A stretch of DNA of 64,000 bases from Flavitalea plasmicola (GTDB taxonomy: Bacteria; Bacteroidota; Bacteroidia; Chitinophagales; Chitinophagaceae). Below are positions 3,937-10,375 of this stretch, in pieces. How positions within the stretch are numbered: position 1 is the stretch's first letter; every line of letters starts with the position of its first letter. A program made the position numbers and the translations under genes. The notes beneath the pieces were generated by a model. The model had not been told where the DNA came from and did no database searches. It worked only from the letters and a program-made list of their open reading frames with translations. The stretch is taken from NCBI RefSeq assembly GCF_030546645.1, contig NZ_JAUOTO010000001.1:248001-312000 (forward strand), given 5' to 3'.

Positions 3937-6900
3937 ATGAGAAAATCAATCTACCTGATTGGGGTACTTGTATTCCATTTTAGTACCTTATCCGCACAAT
4001 CCAGACAAATTTACGGCAAGATCATCGACGCGAAGGACCATAGCTCCCTGTCCGGCGTTACCGTCACGTTGAAGGGAGCGAGGGGCAATGCACTGTCCAC
4101 GGCCGACGGCAGCTTTTCCATAAAGGCGGGCCCCAAGGCCACCAGCCTCAGGTTTTCTTACATTGGATATGAGGATCTGGAAGTTCCCATCGACGCGGGC
4201 TCCAGTCCCCTGGTGATCACAATGTCAGCTTCCCAGAAAGCGCTCAGCGAAGTAGTGGTCGTCGGCTATGGCAAGGCGTTGAAAAAGGACATTACAGGCG
4301 CCATTGCCCAGGTGAACGCGAAAGATATCGAGAATTTCCCGGCGCCGAGTTTTGAATCAGCCATCCAGGGTAAAGCAGCAGGAGTAGTAGTGACATCAGG
4401 CAGCGGCAAGCTGGGACAGGCCATCCAGGTGAATATCCGCGGTATCTCCTCCATCTCGGCCAGCAGCCAGCCGCTGTATGTGGTGGATGGTCTGCCGGTG
4501 ACCACTGCCAGCATGTCGGATATGACCAATGATGACACCAATCCCCTGGCGGATATCAACCCCAACGATATCGAATCGGTGGAGGTCCTGAAAGACGCCT
4601 CTGCCGCCGCCATCTATGGCGCCCGTGCAGGCAATGGAGTTGTCCTCATCACCACCAGGAAAGGCAAGGCCGGTCAGAAGACCGTCATCGAGCTGAATAC
4701 CAGCCACAGCACCAGCAATCCGGCCAGGAAATGGAAATTCCTGGATGCCAAACAATACATTCGCCTGATGCGCCAGGCCGCCGTCAGTGACGGAACGTAT
4801 GATTTCACCAATAACATTTCCGGTTATGCCACCGTCGAGGACGGCATCAATGACTTCTGGGACAACGTATACAAGCCCGTGCTCGACCAGTATTCCCTGG
4901 GCACCAAGTGGCAGGACACGGCCGTCAACTCCAACTGGCAAAAACAGCTATACCACCATAATGCCCCTTCCAGCCAGGTGAATCTTTCCGCCACCGGTGG
5001 CAACGATAAGACGCGCTTTTTCATCTCGGGCTTTTATAACACACAGGACGCCATCGTTATCAACAACAGGTTCACACGTTATGGCGCCCGCTTCAACCTC
5101 GATCATACGGCTTCGGACAGGCTGCTCTTTGGGTTGAACCTTGCGGTAGACCGCTCCCAGCTGAACCGGGTAACCAACGACGACGCCTTTTCGACTCCCG
5201 GACAGCTGGTAGCCCAGATCCCCATCTCACCCCTGATCGACCCCGCCACCGGCCTGCCCAATGCACGGACCCTCTATCCCAGCGGGATCTACGATGCCCT
5301 CTATGACTTCGACCACCAGGTGACCTTCAGGACCATCGGCAACGCCTATGCGAATCTTAAAATACTGCCCACGCTGTCCTTCCAGTCCGAATTCGGCACG
5401 GATATCCTGAACCTTACAGAAAACGAATTCCAGGGCAAGGAATCCCAGGATGGTGCCGGCATTGGAAAGGGTTCGCTGGTGACATCCCAGAGCGTCACCT
5501 ATAATACCAATAACTATTTCACCTTCACCCCCCACATCGGCGATGAACACAAGCTTACCGCTGTCCTGGGCATGAGCTATCTGCAGAATAATTTCGAGCA
5601 CAGCTCAGCTTCAGGCGAGGGCTTCCCTTCTGATGCGGTGAAGAACCTGGATGGCGCTACCAATATCACCGGCGCCGCGACCAGCGACTATAAATACACC
5701 TTCCTCAGCTATTTCCTCAGAGCCAACTACAGCTTCAGGGACAGATACCTGTTCTCCGTCAGCGACAGGATCGACGGCTCGTCCCGGTTCTCTCCCGCAC
5801 ACCGGTACGGTAATTTTCCTGCTGTGTCTGCAGGATGGGTGCTGTCGGAGGAATCTTTTCTCCAGCATTCCAGCCCTTTCAGCTTCCTGAAGCTGAGGGC
5901 CAGCTATGGACTGACAGGCAACTCGGAGATCGGTGAGAACCAGTTCCAATCCCTCTATGCCGTCACCAACTATCCGCTGTTGCCGGGCTTCAGCCCGAGC
6001 CAGCTGGGCAGTGACAAGCTCCGTTGGGAAAAGAGCGCCCAGTTCGATGCCGGCCTGAACTTCGGTATCCTGAAGAACAGGATCATCGGCGAAGTGGATT
6101 ATTATCACAAACATACCACCGACCTGCTGCTGAATACCAATATCCCCGCAACGACAGGATATGCTTCCAACGGAACAGCGACGATCTACCAGAACCTGGG
6201 AGTGATGGACAACAAGGGGATCGAAATTTCCCTCACCTCGCAGAACCTCACGGGTGCTTTCAAATGGACCACCACCTTCAACCTCGCCTATAACAAGAAC
6301 AGGGTTGGCGATATCAAGGGACAGATCATCACAAGCGGGGTACAGCGGGCGGTGGAAGGCCAGCCCATCGGCACATTCTACCTGCAGAAATTCGCAGGCG
6401 TGGATCCTGCGACAGGCGATGCCCAGTATATTGACAGTACGGGTAAGAAGACGACGACCGATTATACCCAGGCGGCCCGCCTGGTGGCGGGAAAATACAC
6501 GCCCGATTACACGGGCGGCCTGACCAATACCTTTTCATATGCAGGGGTCGATCTCAGTGTCTTTTTCTACTTCGTCACAGGGAATAAAATTTACAACGGG
6601 GGCGGCACCTATATGACCGCCGGCTTCTACAACGGGTGGGACAATCAAACAGTCGACCTGATGAACGCATGGCAAAAACCCGGCGACAAAACCAATGTTC
6701 CCCGCATAGGCTACTATTATGGCTCTGGCGCCGACGGCGCCTCCACCAGGTGGCTGTATAAAGGAGATTACCTGCGGATGAAGAACGTCACGCTGGGGTA
6801 TACCCTTCCAGGCGGCGCCCTCAAATCCGCCGGTATTAAATCCGCCAGGATCTATATCAGCGGCACTAACCTACTGACCTTTACAAAATATCCCGGTGAT

Positions 6901-7005
6901 CCGGAAGTCAATACCAACGTCGTAAGCAATATTGCCGGCGGACGGGATTTCTATACCATTCCCCAGGCAAGGACATTTACACTGGGATTGAATGTAAAGT
7001 TTTAA
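3937..7005 (+). CDS. SusC/RagA-family TonB-linked outer-membrane transporter
   Basis: A 1022-residue TonB-dependent outer-membrane barrel that should import a bulky nutrient together with the SusD-like lipoprotein encoded next to it. The signal peptide probably ends after Ala20 (STLSA-QSRQ). Residues about 24-105 form the carboxypeptidase-regulatory-like domain typical of SusC proteins (GKIIDAKDHSSLSGVTVTLKG). The plug follows from about 118 (GKAAGVVVTSGSGKLG, NIRGISSIS, YVVDGLPV, ESVEVLKDASAAAIYGARAG). The remainder is the 22-strand barrel, ending NVKF with the expected terminal Phe. Length is normal for SusC. No glycosidase, protease or sulfatase is encoded nearby and no adjacent ECF/anti-sigma pair controls it, so the substrate cannot be inferred. 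Confidence 0.95.
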   Translation: MRKSIYLIGVLVFHFSTLSAQSRQIYGKIIDAKDHSSLSGVTVTLKGARGNALSTADGSFSIKAGPKATSLRFSYIGYEDLEVPIDAGSSPLVITMSASQKALSEVVVVGYGKALKKDITGAIAQVNAKDIENFPAPSFESAIQGKAAGVVVTSGSGKLGQAIQVNIRGISSISASSQPLYVVDGLPVTTASMSDMTNDDTNPLADINPNDIESVEVLKDASAAAIYGARAGNGVVLITTRKGKAGQKTVIELNTSHSTSNPARKWKFLDAKQYIRLMRQAAVSDGTYDFTNNISGYATVEDGINDFWDNVYKPVLDQYSLGTKWQDTAVNSNWQKQLYHHNAPSSQVNLSATGGNDKTRFFISGFYNTQDAIVINNRFTRYGARFNLDHTASDRLLFGLNLAVDRSQLNRVTNDDAFSTPGQLVAQIPISPLIDPATGLPNARTLYPSGIYDALYDFDHQVTFRTIGNAYANLKILPTLSFQSEFGTDILNLTENEFQGKESQDGAGIGKGSLVTSQSVTYNTNNYFTFTPHIGDEHKLTAVLGMSYLQNNFEHSSASGEGFPSDAVKNLDGATNITGAATSDYKYTFLSYFLRANYSFRDRYLFSVSDRIDGSSRFSPAHRYGNFPAVSAGWVLSEESFLQHSSPFSFLKLRASYGLTGNSEIGENQFQSLYAVTNYPLLPGFSPSQLGSDKLRWEKSAQFDAGLNFGILKNRIIGEVDYYHKHTTDLLLNTNIPATTGYASNGTATIYQNLGVMDNKGIEISLTSQNLTGAFKWTTTFNLAYNKNRVGDIKGQIITSGVQRAVEGQPIGTFYLQKFAGVDPATGDAQYIDSTGKKTTTDYTQAARLVAGKYTPDYTGGLTNTFSYAGVDLSVFFYFVTGNKIYNGGGTYMTAGFYNGWDNQTVDLMNAWQKPGDKTNVPRIGYYYGSGADGASTRWLYKGDYLRMKNVTLGYTLPGGALKSAGIKSARIYISGTNLLTFTKYPGDPEVNTNVVSNIAGGRDFYTIPQARTFTLGLNVKF

Positions 7006-7036
7006 GTTATCTGTCGCTAATTTAAAAGATATCGAA

Positions 7037-8419
7037 ATGAAAAAATTACTATATATACCGACCATCGTATTTGTTTTCCTGCTGGCCTCTTCCTGTAATA
7101 AAAAGCTGGAGGTCCTTCCTCAGAACAATGCCACGCCGGACCAGATCAAAACTTCCGCCGACGTACAGGCCCTGCTCTTCGGGGCCTACGAGCAACTGCA
7201 AAGCTACAGCGCCTTCGGCGAACAGTTCATGCTGATACCTGACCTCCTGGCCTCGAAGGACCAGGTGGATTGGGTGGGCACCTACGCCAGTTATAAACAG
7301 GTGAAGAATAAAAAGATCGTCGCTTCCAATTCCATCGCTTCGTCCATGTGGGGCAATGGCTACAAGGTCATCGGCATCTGCAATACCGTGCTGGATAAGC
7401 TGAGCGTTGTCGACAGTGCAGACAAGGCGACGGTGGAAGGCGAGGCGCTGTTCATGCGTGGTACCATTTATTTCGAGCTGCTCGGCATCTATGCCAGGCC
7501 GTTCTCGGACGGCAATGCCGCTACTAATCCGGGGCTACCCATCGTGTTGGTGCCTACTTACAAATATGACTCCACCAAGGGCAAGCCGGCCAGGGCCACC
7601 GTGGCAGCCACCTATACCCAGATCATCAGCGATCTGCAGGGGGCCATCGCCAAGCTGCCGTCCTCCAATGGCAGCTTCCGCGCAGACGTGTACAGCGCCA
7701 AGGCCATCCTGTCCAGGGTTTACCTGAGCATGCTGGACTATGCCAATGCGGCTACCCAGGCCAATGATGTCATTGTAAGCAAAAATTTTACACTGACGGA
7801 TACCTATGACAAGGCGTTTAACAATAGCGTCAATTCAACGGAAGACATTTTTGCCATCCAGCAGACCTCCCAGAGCAATGTGGGCACCAGCAACCAGGGA
7901 CTCAGCACCTTCTATGCGCCCAACCAGGGATTGCCTGTCGGCCAGACGGTAGGCCGCGGCGACGCGCAGATCGATGCCGGATACATCGTTTATTTCGAGG
8001 CGGGAGACCGCAGGGCCTCCTTTGTCACCGTCGGTAAAAGCATCGCCGGTGCGGACGGCACCTATCCCAATAAATGGCAGCAGTTCTATAAGGCGATGCC
8101 CGTCGTCCGGCTGGCGGAAATGTATCTCACCAGGGGCGAGGCTAACCTGCTTTCAGGCGGTTCGGTAGGCGGCGTAGACCCCCTGGACGATATCAATACC
8201 GTAAGGGCCCGGTCGGGCGCCAGTTTGCTGGCCACCGTCACCGGCCAGGATTTCGTGGACGAACGCTTCCGTGAACTGGGCTTCGAAGGCGACAGGTTCT
8301 GGACCCTGAAGAGGCTTAAACTAAACGTCGATGGGTTTGGATATGATGACAATAAGGTTATCATGCCGCTGCCGCAGAGCGAGCTGGATGTGAATGCCAA
8401 TCTGAAACAGAATCAATAG
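7037..8419 (+). CDS. SusD/RagB-family nutrient-binding outer-membrane lipoprotein
   Basis: A 460-residue lipoprotein that should form the lid over the SusC-like barrel. The signal peptide ends in LLASSC with lipid-acceptor Cys20. The N-terminal TPR-like part (NNATPDQIKTSADVQALLFGAYEQLQ), the central RAIL-type helices (GEALFMRGTIYFELL, AKAILSRVYLSM) and the C-terminal signature (VVRLAEMYLTRGEANL, INTVRARSGA, DERFRELGFEGDRFWTLKR) are all typical. It starts 31 bases after the SusC stop. The end converges on a response regulator gene, with only 4 bases between the stop codons and a strong hairpin across the junction. Confidence 0.94.
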   Translation: MKKLLYIPTIVFVFLLASSCNKKLEVLPQNNATPDQIKTSADVQALLFGAYEQLQSYSAFGEQFMLIPDLLASKDQVDWVGTYASYKQVKNKKIVASNSIASSMWGNGYKVIGICNTVLDKLSVVDSADKATVEGEALFMRGTIYFELLGIYARPFSDGNAATNPGLPIVLVPTYKYDSTKGKPARATVAATYTQIISDLQGAIAKLPSSNGSFRADVYSAKAILSRVYLSMLDYANAATQANDVIVSKNFTLTDTYDKAFNNSVNSTEDIFAIQQTSQSNVGTSNQGLSTFYAPNQGLPVGQTVGRGDAQIDAGYIVYFEAGDRRASFVTVGKSIAGADGTYPNKWQQFYKAMPVVRLAEMYLTRGEANLLSGGSVGGVDPLDDINTVRARSGASLLATVTGQDFVDERFRELGFEGDRFWTLKRLKLNVDGFGYDDNKVIMPLPQSELDVNANLKQNQ

Positions 8420-8423
8420 TTAT

Positions 8424-8840
8424 TCATAAGAGATCCTGGCCGCTTGCGGCCAGGATCTCCTTGAACTTATCTTGTGTGATCGGTTTTACATGATACCCCG
8501 ATACGACACTGTATTGCGAAGCCTTTTTAAGGTCCTCGGAAGTAGAAGAGGAAGTGACGATGAAAATGGTCCGGCGATAGTCTTCCCTGAACGGGATCTT
8601 GATGAACTCATCCAGGAATTGCCATCCATCCATATACGGCATATTGATATCGAGCAGGATCAGCCCGGGCAGCATTTCCGTCGTCGCGTGTTTCTCCTTG
8701 AAATAGCTGATGGCTTCTTCGCCGTCATAGAACTGCAGCACGGATTCGACCATGCCTGACTGTTCGATCGTTCGTTTCATCACCAGCTGATATACCTCGT
8801 CGTCATCGATAATGCCTGCCACAGATAATTTATTGCTCAT
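8424..8840 (-). CDS. Single-domain response regulator (CheY/Rcp1-like)
   Basis: A 138-residue receiver domain without an output domain. Acidic pocket residues are Asp12-Asp14 (IIDDDEVY), the phospho-acceptor is Asp64 (LLDINMPYMDGW), the switch Thr is near 96 (FIVTSSS) and the conserved Lys is 119 (YHVKPIT). The start codon overlaps the stop of the upstream histidine kinase (ATGA, 8837-8840), so the two are translationally coupled and probably form one phosphorelay. With no DNA-binding domain it must act through protein contact or pass the phosphate on. Its last codons form half of a perfect hairpin shared with the susD 3' side. Confidence 0.93.
   Translation of the reverse strand: MSNKLSVAGIIDDDEVYQLVMKRTIEQSGMVESVLQFYDGEEAISYFKEKHATTEMLPGLILLDINMPYMDGWQFLDEFIKIPFREDYRRTIFIVTSSSTSEDLKKASQYSVVSGYHVKPITQDKFKEILAASGQDLL
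8430..8459. terminator. Perfect inverted repeat between the convergent susD and response regulator genes
   Basis: A 14-bp perfect stem (GAGATCCTGGCCGC paired with its exact complement) with a 2-base loop. It lies 10 bases after the susD stop and inside the last codons of the response regulator (EILAASGQDL). There is no long T run on either strand, so termination strength is uncertain. The symmetry suggests a bidirectional transcription block or an mRNA 3' end stabiliser. Confidence 0.6.
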
Positions 8841-10375
8841 ATTATATTTTTCTTCTCGAAATAAACGCGGAAGAGGGTTCCCTTGTCCACTGCACTTTCC
8901 ACCTCTATCTTCCCATTGTTAGCCTCCAGCTGGTTCCTGGTGATGAACAAGCCTACTCCGTTGCTGGCATATCCTTTATGGAAGACCTTTTTATACTTGA
9001 ACATATCCTGTCCGTACTTCTGCATGTCGATCCCGATGCCATTGTCCTGGATGGTCAGCAGGATATAGCCGTCATGGACCTTTGTCGAGATGTCGATGAC
9101 GGGGGTTTTGCCCTGGCAGCGATATTTCAATGCATTGCTGAGGAGGTTGTAAAAGATACTGTCCAGGTAAGCTTTGGGAAACAGCACCTCATCGACCTCG
9201 AATTTTGTGGTGATGACCGCATCCGTGCTCATCAGCTCATTGTCCAGCATCTGCATGCTGGTCTGAAGGGCCTCTTTAAATGAGTAAGCGACGGATTGCT
9301 CTTCCTGGCGGAGCTGGATCTCCAGCAGCTCTTTCAGGTCATTCAAGGTATGGATGATCAATACGGACGTGTCTTTTACCTTCGACAGGAGGAAATCGCG
9401 GTCCTCCTCGTTCTTGTTCTTCTCCAGGTAGTCGGCCATATTGATAAGGCTGGAGGCGGGTCCCCGGAGATTATGGGCTACGATCCGATTGAATTCATTG
9501 ATCCTGACGATATGGGCTTCCAGCTCCGCATTCTTTCGCTCCACTTCCAGTCGCAGCGCCTTTTTTGTCGAGATATCCGTCAGCTGGGAGATAAAAAAGG
9601 CGGGCTTTTCTTCCTGCCAGGTCAGGGAGACGGACAGAAGGACCCAAAGGATGGAGCCGTCCTTCCTGATATACCTTTTTTCCATCTGGTAGTGTTCCCG
9701 TTCTTTATTCAGCATCTGCGTCACAAATGCCATGTCGGCCACCAGGTCATCGGGGTGTGTGATATCCTGGAAGGAACCTTTCAGGAGCTCTTCCCGGGAA
9801 TATCCCAGCATGTCGCAGATAGACTGGTTGACGTTGAGCCACCGGCCTTCGGGGCTTACCAGGGCTACTCCCACCGCGGAATAGTCAAAGACATTCTTAA
9901 AGAGCTGCTTGCTTTCTTCCAGCAGGAGATTCTTCACCTGCAGGTCCGATGCTGTTTTTTTACGCCGCTCGATCTCTGCTTCCAGGGACCGCGGGGATTT
10001 CAGACTGTAGGCATAGGGCAGGAGCCGGATGAGGGAAAAGACGGTCAGCCAGCTGATGACGGCCGTGATGGCCCTCACCAGCGCTGAAAGACGATAGACA
10101 GGCACCCAGAACAGGAGGGCATCCAGGAAATGGGTGGCGCCGCATGCCAGGATAGCGCCGGCAAATAGAAAATACAGCCGGGCATAGCGTTGATGACTTT
10201 GACGGCTGATGAAACGTATGATAATGACGGGAATAGCGAAATAAGCTGACCAGATAAGGAGATCGCTGATGATGTACAGCCATCCGTGGAAATCGGTCCA
10301 TTTACCGCAATGCCAACGGGGGGGCCAGTCACTGCTGTCCAGTAGTTTCAAAAAGAAGTCGAGCACATCCTTCAT
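8837..10375 (-). CDS. Membrane histidine kinase with ethylene-receptor-like (ETR1-type) sensor domain and PAS domain
   Basis: A 512-residue sensor kinase. Residues about 30-122 hold three membrane helices closely resembling the plant ETR1 ethylene-binding domain: SDLLIWSAYFAIP in helix 1 and GAILACGATHFLD in helix 2. Taking the ETR1 residues known to matter for copper/ethylene binding (Asp25, Tyr32, Ile35, Pro36, Ile62, Cys65, His69), this protein has Asp38, Tyr45, Ile48, Pro49, Ile75, Cys78, His82, all at a constant offset of 13. A coiled linker (residues 128-160) leads to a PAS domain (about 161-275). The dimerisation/phosphotransfer His301 (VAHNLRGPAS) and the HATPase with N-box (FYNLLSNALKY), DNGIGID and SNGVGLFIT follow, so the kinase appears intact. 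It is coupled to the receiver gene downstream. Ethylene binding is inferred from residue conservation only. Confidence 0.9.
   Translation of the reverse strand: MKDVLDFFLKLLDSSDWPPRWHCGKWTDFHGWLYIISDLLIWSAYFAIPVIIIRFISRQSHQRYARLYFLFAGAILACGATHFLDALLFWVPVYRLSALVRAITAVISWLTVFSLIRLLPYAYSLKSPRSLEAEIERRKKTASDLQVKNLLLEESKQLFKNVFDYSAVGVALVSPEGRWLNVNQSICDMLGYSREELLKGSFQDITHPDDLVADMAFVTQMLNKEREHYQMEKRYIRKDGSILWVLLSVSLTWQEEKPAFFISQLTDISTKKALRLEVERKNAELEAHIVRINEFNRIVAHNLRGPASSLINMADYLEKNKNEEDRDFLLSKVKDTSVLIIHTLNDLKELLEIQLRQEEQSVAYSFKEALQTSMQMLDNELMSTDAVITTKFEVDEVLFPKAYLDSIFYNLLSNALKYRCQGKTPVIDISTKVHDGYILLTIQDNGIGIDMQKYGQDMFKYKKVFHKGYASNGVGLFITRNQLEANNGKIEVESAVDKGTLFRVYFEKKNII

Follow-up and report, generated by a model that had tools for sequence, protein, structure and literature searches.

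The window, the whole 64,000-nucleotide stretch of Flavitalea plasmicola DNA analyzed here, carries on its minus strand a pair of overlapping genes (8424..10375) that, judging from their sequence, quite likely encode an ETR1/AzoEtr1-type bacterial ethylene receptor and its partner response regulator in a member of the Chitinophagaceae. The reading is built on the domains, seven ethylene-binding residues, predicted helices, and gene overlap established here. From these we infer binding of copper and ethylene, and the kinase would very probably act as a Cu(I)-dependent ethylene receptor. There are precedents in other organisms for the domain, the layout, and the mechanism, and the window protein is a further example of a bacterial ethylene-receptor kinase.

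Domain architecture and conserved residues of the kinase

The kinase gene is one ATG-started open frame of 512 codons running from 10375 to 8837 on the minus strand, a strand that the sequence-only reading did not give; the plus strand across 8837..10375 is broken by stops. According to the frame and Pfam, the 512-aa product is organized as an ethylene-binding domain followed by PAS and then a histidine kinase. A search with an ethylene-receptor N-terminal profile had been proposed as a check by the sequence-only reading, with a lack of significant match as grounds for refutation. The ETR1_N model (PF25487) did match, at residues 30 to 124 (10004..10288), and scored 100.3 bits where the cut-off is 27 (E = 7.6e-29). 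The PAS domain follows at about residues 159 to 269 (9569..9901; Pfam PAS, PAS_3, and PAS_9), with five PAS models passing their Pfam cut-offs, and TIGR00229 (PAS) was the sole NCBIfam family above cut-off among the 25 best of 71 matched. No GAF domain was found in the kinase with Pfam at E ≤ 1. The HisKA (DHp) region at residues 293 to 350 (9326..9499) scored 17.2 bits, under the Pfam cut-off of 26.9. Its presumed phospho-acceptor, His301 in the motif AHNLRGP, is conserved at 90% or more among 55 aligned proteins, namely the window protein and others picked from its best 120 homologues by a length near 500 to 550 aa. HATPase_c covers residues 404 to 508 (8852..9166; E = 4.8e-16), with the N-box starting at residue 410, DNGIG at 444, and GVGL at 473. 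His301 and these three motifs, which are traits of HisKA/HATPase two-component kinases, are all found in the protein. Together, the Pfam matches, the ATP-site motifs, and the conserved His301 bear out the earlier proposal that an ethylene-type domain is fused to PAS and a kinase core.

A second profile, made from an ETR1 sequence and 120 matches of AzoEtr1 (the sources named include Azospirillum, Belnapia, Methylobacterium, Paracraurococcus, and an Acetobacteraceae bacterium, and the set may include Bacteroidota), gave 98.0 bits on the window protein. A chance match was ruled out, the best of 1000 shuffles of residues 1 to 140 reaching 10.8 bits against these 98.0. Among solved structures, the first 140 residues found nothing better than three bacteriorhodopsin-like chains (E = 1.5 to 1.6), and the whole protein matched 17 sequences, all from residue 157 onward. 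A fold search with the whole predicted model returned 917 matches at E ≤ 0.001, of which the best 50 were PAS-kinases, phytochromes, and kinase cores, led by an integrative WalK-YycH model; TM-scores to the query were low in these 50 (0.21 to 0.38), and no ethylene receptor was among them.

The putative binding site was examined in an alignment of ETR1, the window protein, the second copy found in the same genome (see below), and AzoEtr1. The ETR1 N-terminus in it is presumably accurate, and its numbering reproduces all seven positions given in the sequence-only reading, from which the names of the seven ethylene-binding residues are also taken. ETR1 residues 25 to 69 align with residues 38 to 82 of the window protein without gaps and at a constant offset of +13, exactly as had been claimed, and all seven residues match: Asp38, Tyr45, Ile48, Pro49, Ile75, Cys78, and His82 correspond to ETR1 positions 25, 32, 35, 36, 62, 65, and 69. 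Seven is also the number of residues needed for ethylene binding in ETR1 according to PMC11819568, and the ETR1 copper site is formed by Asp25, Cys65, and His69 (PMC12643061). The equivalents of these three ligands, which would form the Cu(I) site, are encoded on the minus strand at 10262..10264 (Asp38), 10142..10144 (Cys78), and 10130..10132 (His82).

An AlphaFold2 model of the single chain without copper, computed from the 55-sequence alignment (mean pLDDT of 81.3, pTM of 0.40), predicts three transmembrane helices at residues 29 to 56 (10208..10291), 62 to 87 (10115..10192), and 94 to 123 (10007..10096). Asp38, Tyr45, Ile48, and Pro49 lie inside the first and Ile75, Cys78, and His82 inside the second, in line with the three-helix setting proposed earlier. 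The membrane part is predicted with moderate confidence (10-residue pLDDT means of 63 to 87 over residues 21 to 120), and hydrophobicity agrees with the predicted helices, the windows of the second and third stretches overlapping. A further predicted helix, at residues 128 to 165, links the membrane helices to the PAS fold.

None of the seven residues varies among the 55 aligned close homologues, and all are kept in 118 of the 120 best-listed homologues, window protein included; one of the two exceptions differs at the position of ETR1 35 and the other at 35 and 62. A wider comparison used 98 related loci, namely all domain matches outside the genome itself that scored above the Pfam cut-off in phylum, family, and genus samples. 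Here all seven residues are kept in 60 loci and the equivalents of Asp25, Cys65, and His69 in 66, part of the departures being due to matches cut at their ends (L145 and L150 are gapped at these columns). The Asp25 equivalent is replaced by Asn in L084, L078, L096, L149, and L151, by Glu in L113 and L115, and by Ser in L101, with the Cys65 and His69 equivalents kept in each case. Just before helix 1, residues 17 to 32 (WPPRWHCGKWTDFHGW; window 10280-10327) are also strongly conserved in the alignment of 55, and Pro19, Cys23, and Trp26 of this stretch are invariant in an eight-row alignment with AzoEtr1-like proteins as well. It is possible that this stretch provides further metal or dimer contacts.

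The overlapping receiver gene and characterized ethylene receptors

The sequence-only reading had described the kinase as coupled to a receiver. The adjacent frame, running from 8840 to 8424 on the minus strand, starts inside the kinase stop with a 4-bp overlap and encodes a single-domain response regulator of 138 aa (Response_reg, E = 5e-16), which fits that description. It contains Asp12-14, Asp64, Thr95, and Lys119, residues with roles in receivers. Response_reg was the sole Pfam match at E ≤ 1; with no output domain detected in the receiver, output would have to pass via another protein. The kinase-receiver pair is flanked by a SusC/SusD-like pair and uvrA. The SusC/SusD-like pair (3937-8419, plus strand) is convergent with the receiver gene, and 4 bases separate the SusD-like stop from the receiver stop. 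The sequence upstream of the kinase, read by eye, held nothing convincing as a promoter.

Among the related loci, 95 could be assessed for a receiver, after setting aside two with a cut kinase frame and one with too little downstream sequence. A receiver lies on the same strand within 150 bp downstream in 38 of them, and 13 of these have the same 4-bp overlap, with the start codon closest to the kinase stop assigned to the receiver, a choice that biases toward short gaps. The other 57 loci have no receiver within 150 bp, although two of them have one inside the kinase frame.

Nearly the same two-gene layout of an ethylene-binding domain, PAS, and kinase with an overlapping receiver gene is described for AzoEtr1 of Azospirillum brasilense, a 525-aa protein followed just downstream by AzoRR-Etr1, a receiver gene (135 aa) that overlaps it at start and stop and carries no further recognizable output motif (PMC11819568). 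Residues 1 to 130 of AzoEtr1 bind ethylene when expressed in yeast, and disruption of AzoEtr1 leaves cells with little or no saturable ethylene binding (PMC11819568). Frames of 525 and 135 aa were present in the AzoEtr1 plasmid region that we examined. The window kinase has the same domain order as AzoEtr1 (512 versus 525 aa), with all seven residues in both, and the two partner receivers (138 versus 135 aa) are each encoded by a single-receiver gene lying directly downstream and overlapping. The likeness is one of layout and sensor, not of close descent of the whole system. The window kinase is 22% identical over 504 positions to P0121, which represents AzoEtr1 in the database and matches it at 100% over the query domain, and the two receivers are 21% identical over 70 positions. 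The phospho-acceptor motif also differs, being AHNLRGP in the window kinase and AHEMSQP in AzoEtr1. With an identity of 22%, the downstream behavior of AzoEtr1 is not transferable to the window kinase.

Compared with the plant receptor, the ethylene-binding domain of the window protein is 34% identical to that of Arabidopsis ETR1 over 96 positions. The receiver of ETR1 is fused to the receptor, whereas that of the window pair is encoded by a separate gene. Plant subfamily 1 receptors carry a GAF domain after the membrane domain (PMC5285503), where the window kinase has PAS; the plant ETR1 layout of GAF and fused receiver is therefore not that of the window kinase. SynEtr1 (slr1212) of Synechocystis is a receptor for ethylene and light that is reported to signal by histidine phosphorylation to a response regulator, which in turn activates small-RNA transcription (PMC11819568); by comparison with this description, the window pair has neither a GAF domain in the kinase nor an output domain on the receiver at Pfam E ≤ 1. 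Both Synechocystis and Azospirillum are reported to bind ethylene in a receptor-dependent manner (PMC11819568).

Proposed signaling and alternative readings

In the mechanism that we propose, the three-helix membrane domain would hold Cu(I) near Asp38, Cys78, and His82, and ethylene would bind this copper. The resulting change would reach the kinase core by way of helix 128-165 and the PAS domain, where it would alter autophosphorylation of His301, from which the phosphate would move to Asp64 of the receiver encoded by the overlapping gene. Ethylene would most likely lower kinase activity, by analogy with ETR1 and SynEtr1: AtETR1 kinase activity is inhibited by ethylene, indirect evidence points the same way for SynEtr1, and receptor disruption in Azospirillum or Synechocystis leads to constitutive ethylene responses (PMC11819568).

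If the window protein binds ethylene, another large group of soil bacteria would have a way to sense a plant hormone, and this bacterium may respond to ethylene from plants. No ACC deaminase scored above the family cut-off in the genome; the one fragment detected reached 22.7 bits against a cut-off of 392, and fragments at about the same level occurred in 6 of 14 control genomes. No other tested feature thus points to plant-ethylene biology. A strong competitor, to which we give somewhat less than an even chance, is that the ligand is ethylene, or some small alkene like it, that comes from microbes or soil and has no plant link, and this explanation differs from the preferred one only in the source of the ligand. 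The possibility was left open by the Azospirillum authors (PMC11819568), and the domain is patchy within the genus, with ETR1_N detected at E ≤ 0.001 in 6 of 33 genomes, own included. A plant source is compatible with these observations as well, and ecology is not readable from sequence.

It seems improbable that the protein is instead a Cu(I) sensor, with the metal site kept and copper rather than ethylene as the physiological signal. All presumed metal ligands are present, and Cu(I) loading rigidifies ETR1 far from the metal site (PMC12643061). Yet Tyr45, Ile48, Pro49, and Ile75, which are not named as copper ligands, are kept as well and are invariant among the 55 homologues, and ethylene binding has been shown for AzoEtr1, which among tested proteins has the closest layout (PMC11819568). 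Less probable still is a structural leftover, in which the kinase is driven through PAS, a possible separate sensor, and the membrane part is a mere anchor: relatives that lost presumed copper ligands and kept the protein do exist, but the window protein and 117 of the 119 other best-listed homologues keep all seven residues, which an anchor would not need.

Relatives of the probable ethylene-receptor kinase in Chitinophagaceae

The sequence-only reading had been unsure of ethylene-type domains in Bacteroidota. ETR1_N was detected at E ≤ 0.001 in 21 of 395 genomes of the phylum sample and in 70 of 394 genomes of the family sample (68 above the Pfam cut-off), own included in both, and in none of 14 control genomes; the domain is therefore present in the phylum, which the source names of homologues point to as Bacteroidota, and the doubt is resolved against its novelty there. 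Putative ethylene receptors in other bacterial phyla have already been mentioned (PMC11819568). An ethylene receptor in Bacteroidota was not reported in the titles or abstracts listed by the literature searches. The term Bacteroid- is absent from PMC11819568, PMC7700396, PMC5285503, and PMC6682694, and PMC10452086 mentions it for ACC deaminase.

Of 1443 candidates in a homology search with residues 15 to 135, 1305 proteins reached E ≤ 1e-5, and the sources named among the best 120 included Filimonas, Paraflavitalea, Foetidibacter, Niastella, Ferruginibacter, and Puia. Two of them, P0002 and P0003, are 92% and 90% identical to the window kinase over the aligned whole protein; some Chitinophagaceae homologues differ from it in having extra PAS domains or other phospho-acceptor motifs or in ending before the ATPase domain. 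In a plasmid collection, the ETR1-type domain was found in 18 of 72,556 records, 7 of which were from Azospirillum and the others cyanobacterial (Acaryochloris and Pseudanabaena) or, by genus name, proteobacterial.

The domain tree comprises 130 columns and 125 rows (24 of 240 listed proteins and the loci with a domain match of at least 95 residues) and is weakly resolved, with support below 80 for 62 of 115 inner branches and with long branches that include ETR1. Within these limits, 11 rows labelled Proteobacteria, a label applied to P0121 onward as a block and not row by row, form one side of a branch (support of 80) that excludes the window protein. Recent transfer from plants found no support, the nearest rows being P0008 (Chitinophagaceae), L139 (from the same genus as the window genome), P0024, P0022, and P0120 (Puia).

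A scan of the genome's contigs yielded three loci. The genome has a second ethylene-binding kinase of 933 aa on contig C16 (L003:3933-8674), with ETR1_N (E = 7.5e-31), up to four PAS stretches, HisKA, and HATPase_c. Its membrane domain is 64% identical to that of the window kinase and keeps all seven residues. The gene is followed by a 154-aa receiver and then by a receiver-PAS-HisKA_3 kinase, and the three possibly form a phosphorelay. Should the window kinase bind ethylene, a genome with two seven-residue copies would allow a direct test of whether a single ligand feeds two pathways.

In 19 of the 98 related loci (L111-L113, L117-L121, L125-L130, L132-L135, and L137), the closed frame stops 49 to 59 residues past a QSHxxRxP motif, too early for an ATPase domain to fit in these proteins of about 310 to 353 aa. 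Pfam scans of four of the 19 listed both ETR1_N and HisKA in each (HisKA above cut-off in two) and a weak or significant PAS match in three; HATPase_c was found in none of the four and was present in a control from the same set. Of the 19 proteins, 18 lack a presumed copper ligand: their His69 equivalent is Tyr or Phe, and the Cys65 equivalent is sometimes changed too. Among the other 79 loci, the Cys65 or His69 equivalent is missing in 5, for a total of 23 of 98. One of these five, L081 (357 aa), also lacks the ATP-site motifs and may belong to the short class, overlooked by a motif search that is crude (5 of 103 sequences keep Cys and His yet lack every one of the three kinase motifs).

In the weak tree, rows without the ligands group together, and at least five changes are needed for the 22 of them that it contains, which argues for few events rather than 18 and suggests that ligand loss and ATPase loss went together. 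These short proteins without copper ligands may be a newer observation than the main finding, and such relatives would provide natural negative controls. We offer only as a speculative picture that Chitinophagaceae, as soil Bacteroidota, contain a large and so far neglected repertoire of ethylene receptors, in some cells two or three on different kinases, and that one branch of it, having lost the copper ligands and the ATPase domain, would be blind to ethylene and perhaps act on intact receptors as partner or sink, or else read another signal. L113 ends early as well and keeps both Cys and His, and it may represent an intermediate.
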